In this document: positions 106 to 8,703 of the stretch, one piece after another | How positions within the stretch are numbered: the first letter of the stretch is position 1 | Layout: each line of letters opens with the position of its first letter | Source of the DNA: Verrucomicrobium sp. BvORR106 | GTDB lineage: Bacteria > Verrucomicrobiota > Verrucomicrobiia > Verrucomicrobiales > Verrucomicrobiaceae | Assembly (NCBI RefSeq): GCF_000739655.1 | Contig: NZ_BATR01000180.1 | Coordinates: 1-57,756, forward strand | Direction: 5' to 3' | Length of the DNA: 57,756 nucleotides | Notes under the pieces: model-generated | What the model was told of the DNA's origin: nothing | The model's database searches: none | The model's input: only the letters and a program-made list of their open reading frames with translations | Translations under genes and position numbers: made by a program

Positions 106-201
106 TCCTCGAAGAGGATGCGGCCACAAGCCCAACGTTGACGAGCATCGAGCGAGTCTACGTTGGGTTACAGCGGATAGCGGCACCTACTCCGAAGGAG
201 T
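106..201 (+). repeat. Hairpin-cluster repeat, AGCCC family, copy 1
   Basis: Three consecutive hairpins fill this gap. A small one lies at 106-118 (TCCTC, loop GAA, GAGGA). A large one lies at 129-169 (arm AGCCCAACGTTGAC against GTCTACGTTGGGTT, one G-T wobble and one T-T mismatch, 13-nt loop). A second small one lies at 189-201 (ACTCC, loop GAA, GGAGT). The copies near 5.5, 6.9 and 38 kb share the layout. Relative to the 5.5 kb copy, two base pairs of the large stem differ on both arms in a compensatory way. Nothing in bases 1-256 looks coding. Confidence 0.75.
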
Positions 202-256
202 TGTGGCGGTCTGGCTTATCTGCCCCCACCGCCGAATCAACAACCCTCCAACCACG

Positions 257-1585
257 TTATTTCCCAGACCTCAATCCCGCCGTATTCACCGCAATCACCC
301 GATAGCCCTCCGCTTTCGTTCCCTCAGCCACAGCGTAACTCATCTGCACCAGCGGCATGGCCGGAGTGTCACTGTATTGCAGCCCCTGAAACACGGGCCT
401 GCCGAAGGGATTCTTCGGCTGCGCTGGCACCGTCGCGATTTCCTTCCCGTCGCGCTCGATGATGAAATGGCCGACACCACTTTCCAGATCCGCCTCTGCG
501 TCCCACTTCAACTCTGAGCCCTCAATCCGTACCTTGGTCGGCGCAGGCGGCGGGGTGATGTCGGCGATCGCGGTGTCTTTGACATACTGCATCCAAGCCT
601 TGGCGGTGGCCTCATCCGGCAGCCACACTGCCTTGCCCACGTCCCCGGTAAATTTGACCGCAGGTACGGCTTCGGCCCCCAGCAACGGAGCCAACCACGC
701 CCCCTCCTTCGACATCGATTTCAAAGCACCCCCACTATGGTCTGGCAAACGCGCGGTCAGGCACGCATCCAGCCAACGGATCGCCAGATAGCGCTGATTG
801 CCACACTCATGGCTCGTCAGCGGATCCACCGCCACTCCCACCAGGCCGCCCTTGGCCCGCAGTTCGCTGAAGAACGTTTCGTTCGAGGGCCACACGCCGG
901 CGAAACGCCCCTCCTTCACCGTGACACCCTCCTTCGTGCCCAAGTTGCACATGATCGGCACCTGCACCGCTTCATCAGGAATGAGATGCGCCTTGATCGC
1001 TGCCCGCTCAGGATTCACCTTCAGTAGAGGCACCCCACTGCGCTGCCACGCCGCCGCCACCCGTTGTGGATGCAGGAGCGTCATGCCGCCGGCCCAGTGC
1101 CCGCCACCACTGTGTCCCCACAGCGCCCACGGCACACTGGCCAGCTCCGGATGACCGCTCGCCTTCCCCAGGTCCCCCAGCGCCTTTTCAAAAGCCGCTC
1201 CGGATCCATTGCGCGGATCACACCACATCTGGCAGTCCGCCTTCTCCGGTTGCTCATATGCGGGTGAGAGCAACGCACAATCATGCTTCTTAGCCAGCGC
1301 CTGCCAGTGCAGGTCAAACGCCCCCGTCAGACCGGATTTGCACGAACCTTCACCACAACCGTGCTGGTGCACGATCACACCGCGAAGCATCTTCACTCCC
1401 GGCGGCACCCACACCGTGTAGTTCACGGGAAAGATCAACCCGCCCGGTTCCTTGGACGCCTCATACCGCACCCGGTAGTACGGTGCCTCCGCCGCGGGGA
1501 AAACATCATACGGCGCGCTCTGAGCCTGGAGCATCGGGAGCGGCGCGGTGGCGAGGACAAGGGAAAGACAGAGAAGATGGCGCAT
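257..1585 (-). CDS. Secreted alpha/beta-hydrolase family protein
   Basis: A 442-residue protein with a signal peptide (MRHLLCLSL followed by a hydrophobic stretch ending near LQAQS). The hydrolase core carries the nucleophile elbow WGHSGGG, and a late SHECGNQ segment may give the catalytic His. The C-terminal ~80 residues look like a separate fibronectin-III-like module ([14 protein letters not shown], then [13 protein letters not shown]). The frame stays open upstream to 1756, but that part is encoded by a repeat element, so the Met at 1585 just before the signal peptide is the better start. The substrate is unknown; an ester of a plant or algal polymer is plausible given the similar enzymes nearby. 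Confidence 0.8.
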
Positions 1586-1692
1586 GTGTGGAGCATACGC
1601 GCCAGTCACGCCGGGCTTTACACCAGCTTCGCGAGACACTCTCCGTCTCCACGTTACCCATCCCGTCTTCTCGCCCTGGCCCGTCCACACAT

Positions 1693-1813
1693 CACGCCAG
1701 TGTCTTGGAGTGCTGGCGGCTCGACGCCGCTTTCGCCTGCAGAAGAGACGCCCCATTCAATCCCCACCGTTGCCAGCCGGCGCAGCCCACTCGCTGGTTC
1801 ACAAACAAGCCCC
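1693..1813. repeat. 121-bp intergenic repeat, copy 1
   Basis: This stretch aligns end to end, without gaps, with 3978-4098, at roughly four bases in five. It opens with CACGCCAGTGTCTTGGAGTG and includes GGCTCGACGCCGCTTT and CCGTTGCCAGCCGGCG. It is followed by CCAAGACGCTTCGCGA, a motif also present in inverted context near the second copy. It starts 108 bp upstream of the start codon of the minus-strand hydrolase at 1585. The remainder of 1586-1922 shows no gene. Confidence 0.75.
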
Positions 1814-1922
1814 AAGACGCTTCGCGAATTGAGAAGCCTTGCCCCCGTTCTCAAGCACACTGCCCGTCGCAGACGGAACAACAGACCATGACGCTGAGGC
1901 GCCCACCCTCCTCAACCAGCGG

Positions 1923-3863
1923 TTAGTTCAAATCCAACTCCGCCGCCTTCGCCTTCTTCTGTTTCGCAGGTGGATAGTCGGGATGTAATCCCGCCATGCG
2001 CGGAGTGATCGGCCGGACAGGGCCGACGTTGATCGCGTAAGGGGTGGTGTTGATCAGCTTGTCAATCGCGGCCCAATTGTCTCTCACCTGTTTGGCCACG
2101 ACCTCGTCCTTCTTTTTCCAATAGCGGCCCATCAGCGTCACGTTATCCATGACCAGACGGGTGTAGTCCAGCCCCACTTGGACAAACGCCACCCGACGCT
2201 GATACAGCGAACCCGCTGGTGCCGCCGCAGCCGCCCGAGTCAGTCTCTCTTGCGATTCGCGAAGAAGCTCCGGCGTGTAAAGCTCAGGGAACAAAAACAC
2301 ACCACCATCCGGGTTCTTGGCCGTGTAGGCCATGCGCGCCTTCTCCAGGCCTTCATAGTACTCTCTAACCGCCCCGGCCGCCGGGCCAAATCCACGCTGA
2401 TAGTAATCCGCAAGAATCGCCTGCCCATCCTTCTTGGAGTCCCACACCAGTTGGGCCATCACGTAGTATTGTGGTCCCAGGGTTGCCCAATGTTCCCAGA
2501 CTCCGTCGATGTAGATGCCCCGACATCCTGCCGCCGCGACATCCTTCAGATCCCGGATCGTCTGCTGGGTGGACAGATCAGGCAGCCCCTGTTGCCACCC
2601 TGCTGGGCTGCCCGTGTTGGGACGCCAGAAAAACGACGAGGTCACCTTGGCCCAGGCATCGAACTGCTCGCGATACGTCTCCCCTCTTGTCGATCCCACA
2701 TCCACCAGACCGGTCCTTCCGTAGAAGTTCGCCACCAAGGTCATGATCACATTGTCTGCGGGACGGGCCACCACTGGCGCAGGTCGGGAGTGGCCATAGC
2801 TGAGCATGAGCACGCAGTAGTCTTTCCCCGGGTACTTGGCCTTTAGCTTTTCTCCAGCCTTGTTGGCAAAGGTCACGTCCCGGTCAGAAAGAGCCGGATG
2901 CACCTCAGCCAGTTTGTACCAGTTGAAGCGTCTCGGCTCTCCATCGGGATGATCCCAGGCCCGGCAGTTGGCACACACGCAATGTCCACTGGCCCAGCTA
3001 TCGTTGGGTGAGGCATTAAAGACCGTCTTGCCAGGATTCGCATTTAGGTCTGCCTCCACCTCCTCCAGCCAGAGTTTCAGGACCAGAGGGTTCGAGACAC
3101 AAAGCTTGGCCGTACGGGGATTCGGGAACCCGCTGCGCGTGCCATCCGGCTGCAGGGCAAAGATCTCCGGGTACTTCTCATGGTAGCGTTCCCACCAATC
3201 CCCAAAGCCGTGTCCGCCCTCCATCGTCAGCGAGCCCAGTTGGAGCCGCTGCCGGAGGGTCCACTCATGGGATTTGCCATACCCCTTGTCGCCCAGACTG
3301 GAGTAGTGAAAAACCCCTTCTCGGGAACGGATCTGGGGATGATACCGTTGCTCAAACGGTGCGAGCACAATGCGGTCCTTGGAAATCACATCTTCCCCCA
3401 GCTCCCCTGGCCAGAGCCAGCGCACACCCAGCTGGTCCTGTATGAAAGTATAGACCGCATTCACCGTGCCATACTCCGTCTGGGCATCAGGGGCCGCCCA
3501 GCGATCCCGTCCCGCGATCACCACATGCTTGTCGTTCGCCGCCAGAAGCGTCTCTTCAGGAAACTGAAACTCGAAGTCCATTCCAGGAAACAGTTTCGCA
3601 ACTCCCGGCTGCACCCCCACCCAGATCGCCTGCGGCGGCACCACCGCCAACTCACCTTCGATGATCTGCGGACGCGCCCCAGTGACCTTCTCAATGGAGG
3701 CCGCCAGCTCATTCACCGCCGCCCGCGTGAAAGCTGAGGACCCTTTCGCCAATACAATGGGAAGAGCCCCCTTCCCCTTCTCAGCGAGAACCAGATCGGC
3801 CGCACGCAGCCAGGACACTGAACTCAACGCGACCAGTAGCAGGCCAAAGGATTTTATCGTCAT
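1923..3863 (-). CDS. Secreted DUF4838 domain protein (glycoside-hydrolase-like)
   Basis: A 646-residue protein with a signal peptide (MTIKSFGLLLVALSSVSWLRA). The N-terminal ~110 residues resemble the alpha-glucuronidase N-terminal type of fold (ARPQIIEGE, IWVGVQPG). The middle region matches DUF4838, with NASPNDSWASGHCVCANC, CVLMLSYGHSRPAP and a GIYIDGVWEHWATLGPQYYV segment. DUF4838 proteins are common in Verrucomicrobiota and Bacteroidetes polysaccharide degraders and are related to glycoside hydrolases; no activity can be assigned from sequence alone. The Met at 3863 is preferred to 3941 because the longer form has a non-signal N-terminus. A 121-bp repeat lies 115 bp upstream of the start. 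Confidence 0.85.
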   Translation of the reverse strand: MTIKSFGLLLVALSSVSWLRAADLVLAEKGKGALPIVLAKGSSAFTRAAVNELAASIEKVTGARPQIIEGELAVVPPQAIWVGVQPGVAKLFPGMDFEFQFPEETLLAANDKHVVIAGRDRWAAPDAQTEYGTVNAVYTFIQDQLGVRWLWPGELGEDVISKDRIVLAPFEQRYHPQIRSREGVFHYSSLGDKGYGKSHEWTLRQRLQLGSLTMEGGHGFGDWWERYHEKYPEIFALQPDGTRSGFPNPRTAKLCVSNPLVLKLWLEEVEADLNANPGKTVFNASPNDSWASGHCVCANCRAWDHPDGEPRRFNWYKLAEVHPALSDRDVTFANKAGEKLKAKYPGKDYCVLMLSYGHSRPAPVVARPADNVIMTLVANFYGRTGLVDVGSTRGETYREQFDAWAKVTSSFFWRPNTGSPAGWQQGLPDLSTQQTIRDLKDVAAAGCRGIYIDGVWEHWATLGPQYYVMAQLVWDSKKDGQAILADYYQRGFGPAAGAVREYYEGLEKARMAYTAKNPDGGVFLFPELYTPELLRESQERLTRAAAAAPAGSLYQRRVAFVQVGLDYTRLVMDNVTLMGRYWKKKDEVVAKQVRDNWAAIDKLINTTPYAINVGPVRPITPRMAGLHPDYPPAKQKKAKAAELDLN

Positions 3864-3977
3864 AGGAAAGCAATGCTGATTCCCGCGCTGAAACGAAGCG
3901 GTTTGGAAAAAATTTCGTGGAAAAGCGTGATCACATCGCACCTACGCACTTTGCAGAAGCCTGGCACCACCTTGCCG

Positions 3978-4236
3978 CACGCCAGTGTCTTGGAGTGCTG
4001 GCGGCTCGACGCCGCTTTTGCCTGCCGAAGAAGCACCCAATCCAATTCCGACCGTTGCCAGCCGGCGAAGCCTACTCGCTAGGCCACAAGCAAGCCCCTC
4101 CCGCTGCTCACCCGCGGAAGCCCCCCATCTCCTTTAGACAACGCACCACCCCTGCTCCCGTACCTAGGTTCTATCCCATCACCACAGCCGCCAAAGCGGT
4201 GTCGAGCCACACGCACTCCAAGACGCTTCGCGAGGC
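3978..4236. repeat. 121-bp repeat copy 2 with inverted end motif
   Basis: Bases 3978-4098 match 1693-1813. Beyond them, at about 4190-4236, an inverted relative of the left end appears (CAAAGCGGTGTCGAGCC, then CACTCCAAGACGCTTCGCG). The whole ~260-bp unit therefore has imperfect inverted ends, like a small non-autonomous element. Copy 1 would be a version shortened internally at its right side. No open frame inside looks like a gene. Confidence 0.65.
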
Positions 4237-4351
4237 AGCAAGCGCTGGAGCTCGTTACACCCTACAAACTTTGCCCACTTCTCAAAGCCCCCGTCCCGGA
4301 TGGGCGCCTGGAGGCTGCCCCTTGAGCACGGAGTTCGAGGAAGCATGAAAC

Positions 4352-4453
4352 CGTCCCGGAGGGACGCCGGAAATTGGCCGGTGGTGGAGGCCTGTCATCA
4401 GGCCGGGAACCACCGGACTATGAACACAATAATCTCCCGTCCCGGAGGGACGG
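4352..4453. repeat. Three-hairpin repeat, CGTCCC/GGTGGT type
   Basis: Small perfect hairpin at 4352-4366 (CGTCCC, loop GGA, GGGACG). Large hairpin at 4378-4416 (CCGGTGGT pairs with ACCACCGG, and inside it GGCCTG pairs with CAGGCC around TCAT). Small perfect hairpin at 4437-4453 (CCGTCCC, loop GGA, GGGACGG). The order small-large-small is the same as in the AGCCC family, though the sequences are unrelated. It occupies the gap 3864-4486 together with the 121-bp element. Confidence 0.7.
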
Positions 4454-4486
4454 CGGATCGCGGCACTCCAACGCAACAAACAAACA

Positions 4487-4891
4487 TCAATCGCCCTTCT
4501 CCTGCTCCACCAGCTTCTGAATCGCAGCCTGATAGTCCGCCTCAAGCCAATCAGGCAATTCAGTCCGCTCGGCACGCCAGATAGGAAAGGCGATGTCCCC
4601 GGCAAAGATCGTAAAGCCAGTTTCGGTGCGCTCCACCGTCCTCGTCCAACTGTTCCCTTTGGGCGACAGCCTAAACCTCAGCGTAACTAGATCATCCAAC
4701 GTGAACCACAGCCGCATGATCCCTTGCCCCTTGCTTCGATCGTTCGTCGCAAGAAACTGCACCGCATACCCTTTCTCATCGAAAATGAGAACACCTGGTG
4801 CCCCCTCGAAATCATGCTCCACCCACCAATATCCAATCAGGTCAACAGGGAGGGTAAAGCTGAGAGATTTCATGGGCTCGTCTATGTTCAT
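4487..4891 (-). CDS. Small hypothetical protein, possible immunity protein
   Basis: About 134 residues from the Met at 4891; starts at 4873 (ATG) or 4954 (TTG) are also possible. The sequence has an aromatic-rich start (LIGYWWVEHDFEGAPGVLIF), then FTLDDLVTLRFRLSPKG, and an acidic, charged C-terminus. There is no signal peptide or membrane segment. I do not recognise the family. Small size, acidic nature and position among barstar-like and ankyrin genes suggest an orphan immunity-type protein, which is inference only. It lies directly downstream of the 108-residue gene on the same strand. Confidence 0.55.
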   Translation of the reverse strand: MNIDEPMKSLSFTLPVDLIGYWWVEHDFEGAPGVLIFDEKGYAVQFLATNDRSKGQGIMRLWFTLDDLVTLRFRLSPKGNSWTRTVERTETGFTIFAGDIAFPIWRAERTELPDWLEADYQAAIQKLVEQEKGD

Positions 4892-4950
4892 TCGATGAAG
4901 CTCAACGTTCCGATCATCCGCTCGCACTCCGCCAGTTCCCGCAGGCGGGG

Positions 4951-5277
4951 TCAATTCACAGGTCTCTGATTGCGAGAATAAACCACCACTGCGGGCTCAT
5001 TTGGCAAGGGAAAAACAATCGTGGGGCAGACATCATTCGCACCCCCAAAAACACGGGGCACGGATTCCAAGACGCTTCCCCAACCAACGTCGGAGTCGTT
5101 GACCTCCACTGCGTGTCCATCTGAGGTCTCAAAACTCAAGTAGCGCACCACAGCGCCATCCGGAAGACTCTCTGTATACGAGAGAACCTTCCAAATATCG
5201 TCCAAAGGCAACTCTGCTTCGGCATTTGTTTCGAAAACCACCCGAAGCCCCGCTCGTGTTAGCTCTGCTGAAGGCAT
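4951..5277 (-). CDS. Small hypothetical protein
   Basis: 108 residues from an ATG. The sequence includes ELPLDDIWKVLSYTESLPDG and YLSFETSDGHAVEVNDSDVGWG, suggesting a mixed alpha/beta cytosolic protein without a signal peptide. The family is unknown to me. It is probably co-transcribed with the 4487-4891 gene (59 bp between them with the ATG start, or an overlap if the TTG at 4954 is used). It belongs to the run of short minus-strand accessory genes. Confidence 0.5.
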   Translation of the reverse strand: MPSAELTRAGLRVVFETNAEAELPLDDIWKVLSYTESLPDGAVVRYLSFETSDGHAVEVNDSDVGWGSVLESVPRVFGGANDVCPTIVFPLPNEPAVVVYSRNQRPVN

Positions 5278-5311
5278 AGTTGATCAAGCAAACCACGGCG
5301 GCAGCAGCATC

Positions 5312-5476
5312 TCAAGGAAGGTTTACGCGCTTTTGCCCCCGCCCTTGCAACTTCAAGAACTGATCCGGTTGCCCAAAGTACCCATAAAACTCCTCCTCCC
5401 AGAAGTATCCCTCCTGCCTCCAGGCGACGAGCTTGTTGAGCATTTCGGCGAACGATAGAGGAATTACGCAGGTCAT
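5312..5476 (-). CDS. Small 54-residue open frame, uncertain
   Basis: It encodes 54 residues beginning MTCVIPLSFAEML and containing WRQEGYFWEEEFYGYFGQ. The composition looks more like a real protein than an out-of-frame product, with clustered aromatic and acidic residues. It ends 34 bp before the 5277 gene on the same strand, and the AGCCC repeat begins just upstream (5496). It may be the remains of a longer gene cut by the repeat, or a genuine small gene. No family is recognised. Confidence 0.35.
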   Translation of the reverse strand: MTCVIPLSFAEMLNKLVAWRQEGYFWEEEFYGYFGQPDQFLKLQGRGQKRVNLP

Positions 5477-5495
5477 CTCTGTGGCACCCGCTTGG

Positions 5496-5643
5496 CTTCT
5501 GAAGCCGATCCCCGCAGGGGATCTGTACCACAGCCCAAGGTTGCCGAGCTTCCAGCGAGGCTACCTTGGGTTTCCGCAGCCGGAAATCTCAGGTGTGGAA
5601 GCCGACGACGTCAGCTTCTCCCTCATCGCCACCAACACCTCCA
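5496..5643 (+). repeat. 148-bp repeat containing AGCCC hairpin cluster, copy 2
   Basis: Identical to 6907-7054 except for one base (T at 5573 is A in the other copy). It contains a small hairpin at 5507-5523 (GATCCCC, loop GCA, GGGGATC), the large hairpin at 5532-5572 (AGCCCAAGGTTGCC against GGCTACCTTGGGTT) and a small hairpin at 5571-5586 (TTTCCG, loop CAGC, CGGAAA). The near identity implies a recent duplication or conversion. The rest of 5477-5787 shows no gene. Confidence 0.85.
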
Positions 5644-5787
5644 GGACATTCCAAACGAGGCCCCTGCATTCAAGATCCAAGTCCCAAGAAGACGCCTACA
5701 TCCACCCGAACTGGAAAACACCTGGAGTTCCCTTTCCTCATGAATCCATATTGAGGTCAAAAAGGCAGCTCCGCAGATCTCTATTCG

Positions 5788-6294
5788 TCATCCAACTAAG
5801 CCCGCAAGATAATTGGCAATTTCAGATTCGCCTCGCTCCTCAGCAAACCCCAAGGCATCCATATCCTTCATCGAGTTCCCTGTGTATTTCACTCGAACGT
5901 CAATCCCCTTCGCTATGAGCAGTTTCACGATCTTTGAGCTTCCACCCTGAATGGCACTGAAAAGCGGATTCCTTTCTGGTTCACTCACGTCCAAGGCTGC
6001 ACCGGCAGCCAAAAGCAATTCCACTGCCTTTAGGTTGCCAAAGGCTGCGGCTACATTGATGGCGGCCCCGCCAAACGCCCCCCCTTTTGCATTCACATCG
6101 GCACCTAGAGATAGCAGGCATTCGACAATCGCGGGACTTCCGGCCTGTGCCGCCACATGCAGCCAAGTACCGAAGGCTGTCATGAGTTTAAGCCTTTCCT
6201 TTGATTCGCCGATCAAAGCACGAACCTTGGTCACGTCAGCTGCCTTTATGGCCCCTCGCAACGCCTTGATGATGACAACATCTTCCGTACTCAT
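5788..6294 (-). CDS. Ankyrin-repeat protein
   Basis: 168 residues with three to four ankyrin repeats: TWLHVAAQAGSPAIVECLLSL, then INVAAAFGNLKAVELLLAAGA, then PLFSAIQGGSSKIVKLLIAKG. Each shows the usual hydrophobic and Gly spacing and the GADVNAKGG turn. A short N-terminal helical region (IIKALRGAIKAADVTKVRALI) acts as a cap. No signal peptide, so it is probably cytosolic and protein-binding. A second, damaged copy lies at 7131-7489. Ankyrin proteins of this size are often antidotes or neighbours in polymorphic toxin loci, but no toxin gene is visible here. Confidence 0.85.
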   Translation of the reverse strand: MSTEDVVIIKALRGAIKAADVTKVRALIGESKERLKLMTAFGTWLHVAAQAGSPAIVECLLSLGADVNAKGGAFGGAAINVAAAFGNLKAVELLLAAGAALDVSEPERNPLFSAIQGGSSKIVKLLIAKGIDVRVKYTGNSMKDMDALGFAEERGESEIANYLAGLVG

Positions 6295-6317
6295 TCAACG
6301 TCTTTGGATGTCATAAA

Positions 6318-6332
6318 GGGACAGACACTTTG
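6318..6332 (+). repeat. GGGACAGACACTTTG motif, copy 1
   Basis: One of four related short motifs in this island (6318, 7148, 7513, 8682). It lies 24 bp upstream of the ankyrin start codon. The 8682 copy forms a perfect hairpin (CAAAGGG, loop ACAGA, CCCTTTG), so the family resembles REP-like palindromes; here the stem is partly decayed. Confidence 0.5.
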
Positions 6333-6358
6333 CACCACGTCTTTTTCAAAAGCCAATT

Positions 6359-6805
6359 TCACGCGAGATTTCTGTAAAACTCTCTGCCGAACTCTTGAGC
6401 CCCCGGCTGAGGCTCCGCAGCATCCCGATGATAGATGAGGTCCGAAAAATCAAACCGATTCAAAACCGCCTCTCCCCTTTCGTCTTCAAATACGTCATGC
6501 ACCTCATACCCGCAAAGTGCCCGGCGAATTCCATTCTCGCCCGTTAGACTCAAGTAGAGTTCGTCGATGATCCTCGCAACCATGGCTGGCTCATTCATCC
6601 CCTCCCCAAAGCCGAAGTTCGAGTATCCAGGTCCCACTGGGCACGCAGTCACATACCAAAAGTCGGACTTCGTGTACAGATCGAGGTTCGCCATGGGAAC
6701 CCTTCGGTCGTCAAGGCACAGGACCAGGGATTCAAGCCCTTCCTTGATGCGGAAAGCATCAACTTCCCGATAACACTCGATCACCAGACTGAAATACATC
6801 GCCAT
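6359..6805 (-). CDS. Small hypothetical protein, possible immunity protein
   Basis: 148 residues from the Met at 6805 (a second Met at 6799 is also possible). The sequence runs YFSLVIECYREVDAFRIKEG, then RVPMANLDLYTKSDFWYVTA and DLIYHRDAAEPQPG, ending REFYRNLA. It is acidic and aromatic with no signal peptide. The upstream extension of the frame to 6949 runs into the 148-bp repeat and is unlikely to be coding. The family is not recognised; location and character fit an immunity-type cytosolic protein. It lies upstream of the ankyrin gene on the same strand with a 64-bp gap. Confidence 0.6.
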   Translation of the reverse strand: MAMYFSLVIECYREVDAFRIKEGLESLVLCLDDRRVPMANLDLYTKSDFWYVTACPVGPGYSNFGFGEGMNEPAMVARIIDELYLSLTGENGIRRALCGYEVHDVFEDERGEAVLNRFDFSDLIYHRDAAEPQPGAQEFGREFYRNLA

Positions 6806-6906
6806 GGTCACGCACAATGGTTGAATTTCCTGAGTATCGGCAATCCCCACTCGAAGACAAGGGCCGCCATCGCGGATGGGAGTCAAAGACCTCTGCACCC
6901 GCCGCC

Positions 6907-7054
6907 CTTCTGAAGCCGATCCCCGCAGGGGATCTGTACCACAGCCCAAGGTTGCCGAGCTTCCAGCGAGGCTACCTTGGGTATCCGCAGCCGGAAATCT
7001 CAGGTGTGGAAGCCGACGACGTCAGCTTCTCCCTCATCGCCACCAACACCTCCA
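6907..7054 (+). repeat. 148-bp repeat containing AGCCC hairpin cluster, copy 3
   Basis: One mismatch from 5496-5643. Small hairpin 6918-6934, large hairpin 6943-6983 with the same stem as copy 2 except that the outermost pair is A-A, then a shortened small hairpin (TCCG, loop CAGC, CGGA). With copy 2 it forms direct repeats 1.41 kb apart, bracketing the intact ankyrin gene and the 6359-6805 gene. Confidence 0.85.
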
Positions 7055-7130: not shown

Positions 7131-7489
7131 CTACCCGGCATCACAGAGGGACAGACACTTTGTACCCCTTTCTGGTTCACTCACGTCCAAGGTAGCACCG
7201 GCAGCCAAAAGAACTTCCACCACCTTGGAGTTTCCGTAACCTGCAGCTAAGTTTACTGCTGTCCCACCGAATGCCCCTCCAATGGCATTAACATCCGCAC
7301 CAAGGGATAACAAACATTCGACCATCTCAACATTTCCAGTCTTCGCCGCCACATGCAGCCAAGTACCGAAGGGAGTCATTAGTTGAAGCCTTTCCTTTGA
7401 ACGCCGATCAAAGCACGAACCTTGGTCACGTCAGCAGACTTTACGGCCTCTCGAAGCGCCTTAATGATGACAACCTCTTCCATACTCAT
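7131..7489 (-). pseudogene. Broken duplicate of the ankyrin-repeat gene
   Basis: The first 37 codons (MSMEEVVIIKALREAVKSAD onwards) match the N-terminus of the intact ankyrin protein. A single-base loss (GGCGAATCAAAG in the intact gene, GGCGTTCAAAG here) then shifts the frame to a TAA at 7379. The second part continues in another frame from the overlapping ATG at 7379 (MTPFGTWLHVAAKTG) and stays ankyrin-like until EPER. There the homology stops at base 7167 and a GGGACAGACACTTTGTACC motif replaces the missing last ~60 residues. It thus carries both a frameshift and a 3' truncation. The 82-residue second part might still be translated by coupling. Confidence 0.8.
7148..7166 (+). repeat. GGGACAGACACTTTGTACC motif at the pseudogene breakpoint
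   Basis: The motif ends exactly where homology between the ankyrin duplicates ends (7167 corresponds to 5971), so it marks the truncation junction. Confidence 0.6.
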
Positions 7490-7512
7490 TCAACGTCTTT
7501 GGGTGCGATATA

Positions 7513-7527
7513 GGGACCGACACTTTC
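7513..7527 (+). repeat. Degenerate GGGACAGAC motif
   Basis: GGGACCGACACTTTC, 24 bp upstream of the ankyrin pseudogene start. It is the duplicate counterpart of 6318-6332 and shares its flank (CATTCAACGTCTTTGG). Confidence 0.4.
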
Positions 7528-7580
7528 GGTCTCCCACAGGACGACTTTGAGTTGCTCGTGCCCACCTGTTTTTGCGGCAT

Positions 7581-8613: not shown

Positions 8614-8681
8614 TAGGACGGAAAAATCGGTGTGTAATGATTTCAGTTCTATCGCTCGCGGATGGGCGTGAATCTCACAAA

Positions 8682-8703
8682 GGGACAGACCCTTTGTACC
8701 ACG
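8682..8703 (+). repeat. GGGACAGACCCTTTG motif with perfect hairpin
   Basis: CAAAGGG (8679-8685) pairs perfectly with CCCTTTG around ACAGA. It is the best preserved of the four motif copies and stands between two minus-strand genes. Confidence 0.5.

Follow-up and report, generated by a model that had tools for sequence, protein, structure and literature searches.

In E. coli and Stenotrophomonas, repetitive extragenic palindromes (REPs) occur in high copy number with a short tag by the hairpin, and in the REPtron a Y1 HUH gene, encoding TnpAREP or the REP-associated tyrosine transposase (RAYT), lies between inverted copies of the repeat; the E. coli REP also carries a conserved mismatch in the middle of its stem (PMC2817692, PMC8266576). 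These traits, the mid-stem mismatch included, were shared by the system described here, a family of palindromes with AGCCC arms that we studied in 57,756 nt of Verrucomicrobium sp. BvORR106 DNA (contig NZ_BATR01000180.1, forward strand; the whole stretch is called the window). The IS200/IS605 transposons with a TnpA of subclass 1.1 have in common with it a transposase above the cut-off of an NCBIfam model, hairpins with short tags, and an orientation bias related to replication (PMC6006769). Subclass 1.2 of TnpAY1 shares the motifs DH[IV]H, WQ, and Y---Q--HH, a length of about 150 amino acids, and a low copy number (PMC6006769, Table 1). As described there by Quentin et al. 2018, subclass 1.2 has no REP listed, is distributed mostly in Cyanobacteria and Bacteroidetes, and is generally without IS hairpins. 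In the TIRtron, a Y1 transposase (TIRYT) lies between long, partly self-complementary inverted repeats, which possibly form repeated families (PMC3733652). GTAG REPs in bacteria of the Planctomycetes-Verrucomicrobia-Chlamydiae (PVC) group, together with transposases flanked by terminal inverted repeats (TIRs), were reported by Di Nocera 2013 (PMC3733652). In the part of Quentin 2018 (PMC6006769) that deals with them, TIRYTs belong mostly to subclass 2.1, with a C-terminal helix-turn-helix (HTH) and the GGGGWSAS motif; 20 of the 26 TIRYTs of Di Nocera are placed in 2.1, the other six in 2.2 and 2.5, and none in 1.2.

We propose, with a probability of about 0.72, that each window palindrome forms the core of a non-autonomous, REP-like mobile element, which folds as single-stranded DNA (ssDNA) and is moved by a subclass 1.2 transposase. 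The proposal is built on fold-consistent covariation, a three-hairpin anatomy, inverted copies around transposase genes, spread across phyla, high copy number, and an orientation bias, each of them a result of the present analysis.

An earlier note on the window had reported AGCCC palindromes at three places. All three were recovered, since AGCCC...TTGGG matches were found at 129-167, 5532-5570, and 6943-6981, with 0 matches in 100 shuffles and 0 expected by chance. The two pair-preserving differences it had read between copy 1 and copies 2 and 3 are also real: position 8/34 is C-G versus G-C and position 13/29 is A-T versus C-G. All three copies keep a G.T wobble at the second pair. In addition, apical loop positions 19 and 22 form a T-A pair in copies 2 and 3 and are A.A in copy 1, and the outermost A-T pair of the palindrome is A.A in copy 3. 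The tandem G.A/A.G mismatch in the middle of the stem was kept in 124/129 and 123/129 unique copies. The ssDNA folds of the window copies, and of the element beside the transposase gene L031 described below, were more stable than those of shuffled sequences (z -3.4 to -4.6), with z=-3.43 for copy 1 (104-223), -4.62 for copy 2 (5500-5600), and -4.05 for copy 3 (6911-7011). Judging by the sequence, copies 2 and 3 appear to stem from a recent duplication. With 97% identity over 160 nt, the two do not count as independent, and a single comparison, not two, can be drawn from the window by itself. A region of an ankyrin-repeat gene is also duplicated, at 5971-6331 and 7167-7526, adjoining copies 2 and 3, with a spacing that differs from that of the duplicated elements.

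The palindrome is the middle part of a larger element, whose order is mini-hairpin, tag, palindrome, spacer, and second mini-hairpin, followed by a similar tag. The mini-hairpin has a stem of about 5-7 bp and a triloop that is usually GAA, AAC, or AAA on the strand as read, and GCA in window copies 2 and 3. The parts seen in the window are as follows.

106 to 118, + strand: mini-hairpin 1 of copy 1, TCCTC-GAA-GAGGA (sequence, ssDNA fold, family match over 98-168 at E 5e-20)
119 to 128, + strand: tag of copy 1 between mini-hairpin 1 and palindrome, TGCGGCCACA (sequence; similar in the type-A upstream group)
129 to 169, + strand: central palindrome of copy 1, C-G / A-T variant (pattern, ssDNA fold, covariation)
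189 to 201, + strand: mini-hairpin 2 of copy 1, ACTCC-GAA-GGAGT (sequence, ssDNA fold; the same element type lies on both sides of transposase gene L278 of genome G065)
202 to 211, + strand: tag of copy 1 after mini-hairpin 2, TGTGGCGGTC (sequence; TGTGGC here and GCCACA in the first tag are complementary)
5507 to 5523, + strand: mini-hairpin 1 of copy 2, GATCCCC-GCA-GGGGATC (sequence, ssDNA fold, family match)
5524 to 5531, + strand: tag of copy 2, TGTACCAC (sequence, subtype alignment)
5532 to 5572, + strand: central palindrome of copy 2, G-C / C-G variant (pattern, ssDNA fold, covariation)
5571 to 5643, + strand: type-B downstream module of copy 2, a small hairpin at 5571-5586 and then TCAGGTG...GCCGACGACGTCAGC (conserved among type-B copies; ssDNA fold)
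6895 to 7054, + strand: 160-nt block, 97% identical to 5484-5643 (window self-comparison)
6918 to 6934, + strand: mini-hairpin 1 of copy 3 (sequence, ssDNA fold, family match)
6935 to 6942, + strand: tag of copy 3 (sequence)
6943 to 6983, + strand: central palindrome of copy 3, with the outermost A-T pair as A.A (pattern, ssDNA fold)

When the flanks of the copies were aligned, a mini-hairpin was present about 10 nt upstream in every subtype, and three kinds of downstream module were distinguished. In type A (window copy 1) and in type C, the downstream module contains a second mini-hairpin and then a tag similar to the first one. Modules on the two sides are combined in several ways across subtypes, whose counts are only relative because copies with equal upstream letters were merged (99 matches to 67).

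Covariation was assessed by an R-scape-like G-test with average product correction (APC), in which the nulls were parsimony substitutions redistributed on a FastTree tree; the test assumes a tree, whereas repeats can recombine. Among 82 unique exact-pattern copies, from which one reverse-strand reading had been removed, the first pair of the earlier note was on top under three trees (E=0.000, 0.005, and 0.000; 400 simulations each). Since the exact pattern had fixed most of the arm letters, the test was repeated on divergent copies collected by a sequence-only model, where 157 matches gave 140 copies by their flanks and, partial and duplicate matches being dropped, 129 unique copies. The C-G/G-C pair (40-66) again ranked first, with a score of 122.0 against a null maximum of 109.3 (E=0.000; 300 simulations), and both of its sides change on 8 branches and one side on 12. 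All of the five best-scoring column pairs belong to stems. After the first come the arm pair next to it, 39-67 (score 96.4, E=0.023), and three mini-hairpin pairs: 14-18 (95.0, E=0.030), the outer 8-24 (87.1, E=0.073), which in type A spans a mismatch, and 13-19 (64.6, E=1.3). Three column pairs outside the fold ranked 6th, 7th, and 9th (E 2.4 to 5.2), as expected from the differences between subtypes. The second pair of the earlier note (45-61) ranked 8th with a score of 56.7 (E=4.1); it was paired in 128/129 copies (A-T 97, G-T 17, G-C 10, C-G 4, unpaired 1). A genome-wide, phylogeny-corrected test, of the kind that the note had put forward, upholds its first pair; the second is not significant alone. 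Its interpretation, selection on a folded form, is supported by the covariation of stem pairs over the 129 unique copies. Covariation has no power to separate DNA from RNA, and what points to ssDNA is the transposase association together with the replichore bias.

None of the 18 PF01797 matches of the BvORR106 genome was on the window contig (C30), and the cognate gene, L031, is on contig C157. L031 encodes a 151-amino-acid HUH/Y1 transposase and has inverted type-C copies of the window element on both sides; the Pfam scan gave Y1_Tnp as its only domain, and its nearest solved relative by sequence was 2fyx, a putative transposase (E 0.0006). Six further class-1-like Y1 genes of BvORR106 each have their own analogous element, and inverted flanking repeats above control were found at 7/7 of these genes (L031-L037). 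The genome gave 7 matches at E<=1e-10, with an identity to the query of 37-50% for 5 of the 6 paralogues. In the genome G065, the sibling gene L278, with one in-frame TGA, has the type-A element of window copy 1 on both sides. Inverted flanks exceeded the 99th percentile of 780 mismatched flank pairs at 29/34 family loci (7 of BvORR106 and 27 of relatives; L131 and L156, without a frame, were excluded). In a wider collection of genome contigs, they exceeded the 99th percentile of 5048 mismatched pairs at 55/78 loci (L163 and L188, with a short flank, were excluded). By group, the counts were 24/32 for Verrucomicrobia, 14/16 for Planctomycetes, 4/4 for Armatimonadetes, 5/13 for Bacteroidetes, 2/3 for Acidobacteria, and 6/10 for others; this wider set is the best 80 of 567 relatives of a verrucomicrobial query and says little on the true distribution, and many of its loci come from metagenome-assembled genomes, whose names may be wrong.

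The motifs DH[VI]H, WQ, and Y---Q--HH were present in 76/80 proteins of the wider collection, and Y---Q--HH and WQ in 15/15 aligned transposases. Three proteins were scored with two models: with the NCBIfam IS200 model NF033573 they reached 64.1, 62, and 74.6 bits (cut-off 55), and with the REP_Tyr_transpos model they gave no match, 29.1, and 19.3 bits (cut-off 80). The class 2 genes compared were L038, L041, and L044 of BvORR106, as L039, L040, L042, and L043 gave no frame. At L038 (contig C53, YIQENP), the inverted repeat on both sides consists, as read on one of the strands, of GTAG, one base, and a single perfect hairpin, by eye without mini-hairpins, and at L041 and L044 no inverted flank was found. 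Set against the three-hairpin elements, the L038 repeat indicates that the two plans occur side by side in BvORR106, each paired with a different class of transposase.

The anatomy extends to other phyla. By a rule-based search, the order mini-hairpin, palindrome, mini-hairpin was found in 55/83 flanking elements (28 of the family set and 55 of the wider set were searched). In these 55 elements, which were selected on the presence of both mini-hairpins and not on their loops, GAA, AAC, or AAA triloops were found in 45 first and 38 second mini-hairpins, whereas 50 rounds of approximate dinucleotide shuffling gave means of 1.1 and 1.2 and a maximum of 4. The complements of these loops were found in 0 first and 2 second mini-hairpins, and the strand of the mini-hairpin is therefore fixed relative to the palindrome. 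Among 40 non-redundant elements, the three triloops were present in 32 first and 24 second mini-hairpins. Hairpins of the form C-GAA-G are unusually stable in DNA, and a mini-hairpin of this form is used in aptamer papers. The tags after the two mini-hairpins of one element were alike (mean 4.40 of 9 versus 3.46 for mismatched tags, p 1.3e-6) and family-specific; GTAG was absent from most element families and present only in some type-B and type-C tags, separated from the palindrome. At several loci (e.g., L033, L190, L195, L212, L218, and L233), tandem arrays were seen in which every period holds a single mini-hairpin and a single palindrome, an arrangement that suggests palindrome, spacer, mini-hairpin, and tag as the repeating unit.

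The element is abundant. At least 150 matches to the sequence-only profile were found in the BvORR106 genome (all E <=5e-6; the weakest partial), and the exact pattern matched 94 times (44 + / 50 -, one place counted on both strands), 21 of these copies lying inside a home-called open reading frame; the reversed control gave 0. The exact pattern was present in 8/68 family genomes: 94 in G000 (BvORR106), 97 in G065, 38 in G067, 34 in G061, 27 in G062, 2 in G063, and 1 each in G009 and G023. Single matches do not exceed what the reversed control yields in five of the genomes. The matches of G061, G062, G063, G009, and G023 differ inside the palindrome. G065 is Verrucomicrobium sp. BvORR034, of the same genus as the window genome, and a 1600-base slice of it is identical to NZ_BATQ01000132.1. 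The complete congeneric chromosome G067 held 119 element matches, weak ones included. Among the close pairs of G067, the order - then + was seen 8 times, with starts separated by 108-153 nt, and + then - 3 times, at a distance of 262-319 nt. In Terriglobus albidus, a different, cognate palindrome has 109 exact copies, of which many form inverted pairs; among the matches listed, these are mostly + then -, as around the transposase gene. This palindrome was found in 2 to 4 copies in four other genomes, in 7 copies in BvORR106, and in none of two further genomes searched.

Other repeats of the window were also noted. At 4291-4457 there is another three-hairpin family, with GTCCCGGAGGGAC mini-hairpins and a CCGGTGG palindrome; it has 17 exact-pattern copies and its own transposase, L037, elsewhere in the genome, whose reading frame is without the Y---Q--HH end present in relatives. 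A 139-nt direct repeat (83%) at 1675-1813 and 3960-4098, with an inverted arm at 4190-4227, makes up a further repeat family. A AAAGGGACAGAC-like repeat occurs four times (6305-6339, 7135-7169, 7500-7534, and 8669-8703) and resembles the GGGGWSAS terminal repeats of TIRYT transposases.

The orientation of the copies was monitored in G067, one contig of 8,220,857 bases, in which the GC skew, among the samples listed (28 of 60), is for the most part positive up to 4.1 Mb and negative beyond it, with some exceptions. Of the 119 matches, the first half of the contig carried 23+/40- and the second half 37+/19- (p 0.0017), and the 81 isolated copies were 10+/27- versus 29+/15- (p=0.0007). Relative to neighbouring genes, no preference was found (89 versus 79 in BvORR106, 31 versus 29 in G067; home-made gene calls, as in all gene comparisons here), and genes follow the replichore weakly (331:269 and 60:86). 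In the absence of such a preference, gene orientation was rejected as the cause of the strand bias. Under this bias, the strand complementary to AGCCC falls on the lagging-strand template, and on this complement strand the tags lie 5' of each mini-hairpin. In the IS200/IS605 descriptions (PMC6006769, PMC8266576), guides are on the same side, 5' of the hairpins. The bias and the tag position together are a lead to the active strand, not proof.

Regarding the mechanism, a subclass 1.2 HUH/Y1 transposase, flanked by inverted copies of its own element, would recognise that element as folded ssDNA and would cut and rejoin it at or near the tags. Solo copies may thereby spread, mainly in ssDNA at the replication fork. 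We propose that stem pairing would be kept because the fold is what the transposase recognises, which would account for the compensatory changes. In this scheme, the transposase presumably moves the solo copies, the tags are putative guides or cleavage sequences, and the candidate for the active strand is the one complementary to AGCCC; mobility itself and the cleavage sites are likewise deduced from the pattern of copies.

Several observations weigh against this proposal. No transposition was seen. When 84 BvORR106 loci were compared with 0.8 Mb of G067, none of the 3 sites aligned in detail was a clean empty site: at L084 and L092 the element is absent in G067 and the flanks are diverged, so that neither a clean empty site nor exact boundaries were obtained, and the third site holds a different, degraded-looking element. 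Type B, to which window copies 2 and 3 belong, has another downstream module, and the three-hairpin plan is therefore not uniform; 28/83 flanking elements were without both mini-hairpins by the rule. Types A and B are far commoner than type C, the element beside the sole cognate transposase gene found in BvORR106. Inverted flanks above control were missing at 5/34 family loci and at 23/78 loci of the wider collection, and Bacteroidetes had them at only 5 of 13. As to orientation, the origin and terminus of G067 were placed from GC skew only, the test on other element families of G067 was borderline (21 isolated copies, 1/11 versus 5/4, p=0.046), and, if the AGCCC strand itself were active, the bias would be opposite to the IS608 expectation.

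Other explanations were considered for the same data. The hairpins could act as RNA, as transcribed 3' ends, mRNA stabilisers, or bidirectional intergenic terminators, and pairing would then be kept for such a use. These structures would fold as RNA too, and convergent neighbours are favoured (31 convergent versus 14 divergent of 84 in BvORR106, 13 versus 2 of 30 in G067); however, avoidance of promoters explains the convergent excess equally well. Orientation tied to the replichore and not to neighbouring genes is not expected of an RNA role, nor are inverted repeats around transposase genes of one subclass across many phyla, and we regard such a role as unlikely. Rfam at the gathering threshold gave no family in the window and 0/3 window palindromes were called terminators, on which grounds a structured RNA was rejected as a candidate. 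It is just as improbable that the palindromes are passive remnants, old copies disseminated through recombination and segmental duplication, whose paired changes came from template switching in the hairpin and not from selection. The near-identical 160-nt blocks around copies 2 and 3 and the modules shuffled between subtypes agree with this, and the 8 branches changing both sides of the top pair are what a one-step correction would give. However, the 12 branches that change one side only indicate that stepwise change occurs, the mini-hairpin loops and tags are conserved across phyla although template switching does not protect them, and the transposase association is left unexplained.

That the copies are ordinary GTAG-type REPs of a class 2 RAYT is very improbable. 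The plan is the same, with high-copy extragenic palindromes, inverted pairs, and a flanked Y1 transposase, and GTAG does occur within some type-B and type-C tags; nevertheless, most element families are without a GTAG tag, the 15 aligned transposases have Y---Q--HH and not Y---NP, and the three scanned proteins fell far below the REP_Tyr_transpos cut-off. Besides, two of the three framed class 2 genes in BvORR106 had no inverted flank, and L038 had a plain single-hairpin GTAG repeat. The canonical RAYT was rejected by the motif, the model scores, and the contrast with L038. The proposal of ssDNA elements moved by subclass 1.2 transposases is preferred over these three. A further-reaching form of it has, in our estimate, even odds: that the elements make up a separate, phylum-crossing class of ssDNA repeat between IS200/IS605 and REPtrons, built of units of palindrome, strand-specific triloop mini-hairpin, and tag, able to form tandems (period about 65-85 nt), and moved by subclass 1.2 HUH transposases, with the 5' tag of the complement strand as guide and solo copies settling preferentially with the complement strand on the lagging-strand template.

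In the REP, RAYT, and TIRYT literature, including that on Verrucomicrobia and Planctomycetes, no title or abstract opening among the matches listed described the three-hairpin architecture (subscription papers, preprints, figures, and supplements were outside the search). The results point to a widespread, little-described kind of mobile repeat, and the element fits best among the REP/IS200-like kind, as a variant whose mechanism is a proposed one. The findings bear on how REP-like repeats originated from IS200/IS605 transposons and on what a class 1 enzyme would gain from such repeats. Moreover, the architecture names the parts to mutate (triloops, tags, and the mid-stem G.A mismatch) and renders strand choice and guide pairing directly testable. 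It also suggests that a widespread class of repeats can escape surveys in which GT[AG]G is a requirement.

As far as the published descriptions go, the window system differs from each of its relatives. Unlike the REPtron, it has a class 1-like Y---Q--HH and not Y---NP, it has no general GT[AG]G foot, and its palindrome alternates with mini-hairpins that mostly carry GAA, AAC, or AAA triloops and can form tandem arrays of mini-hairpin and palindrome. Unlike IS200/IS605 elements of subclass 1.1, its transposases have WQ instead of W[TS], and the flanking element is a three-hairpin repeat with many solo copies; no two of the seven transposase genes of BvORR106 share an element, and the majority of copies are non-coding. 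In contrast to the TIRYTs, L031 has Y1_Tnp only, and by eye its flanking elements have no GGGGWSAS; the two were set apart by text descriptions and may overlap in part. TnpAY1 class 3 has Y----Q and a CnGA foot, whereas the transposases here have Y---Q--HH and the tags vary by family (CnGA was not searched as such). Compared with the published subclass 1.2, inverted repeats were present here at 55/78 loci, most loci being from Verrucomicrobia and Planctomycetes. This contradicts the published entry without REPs, not the assignment to subclass 1.2, and a three-hairpin architecture common to many subclass 1.2 members in several phyla provides a candidate substrate for the subclass.

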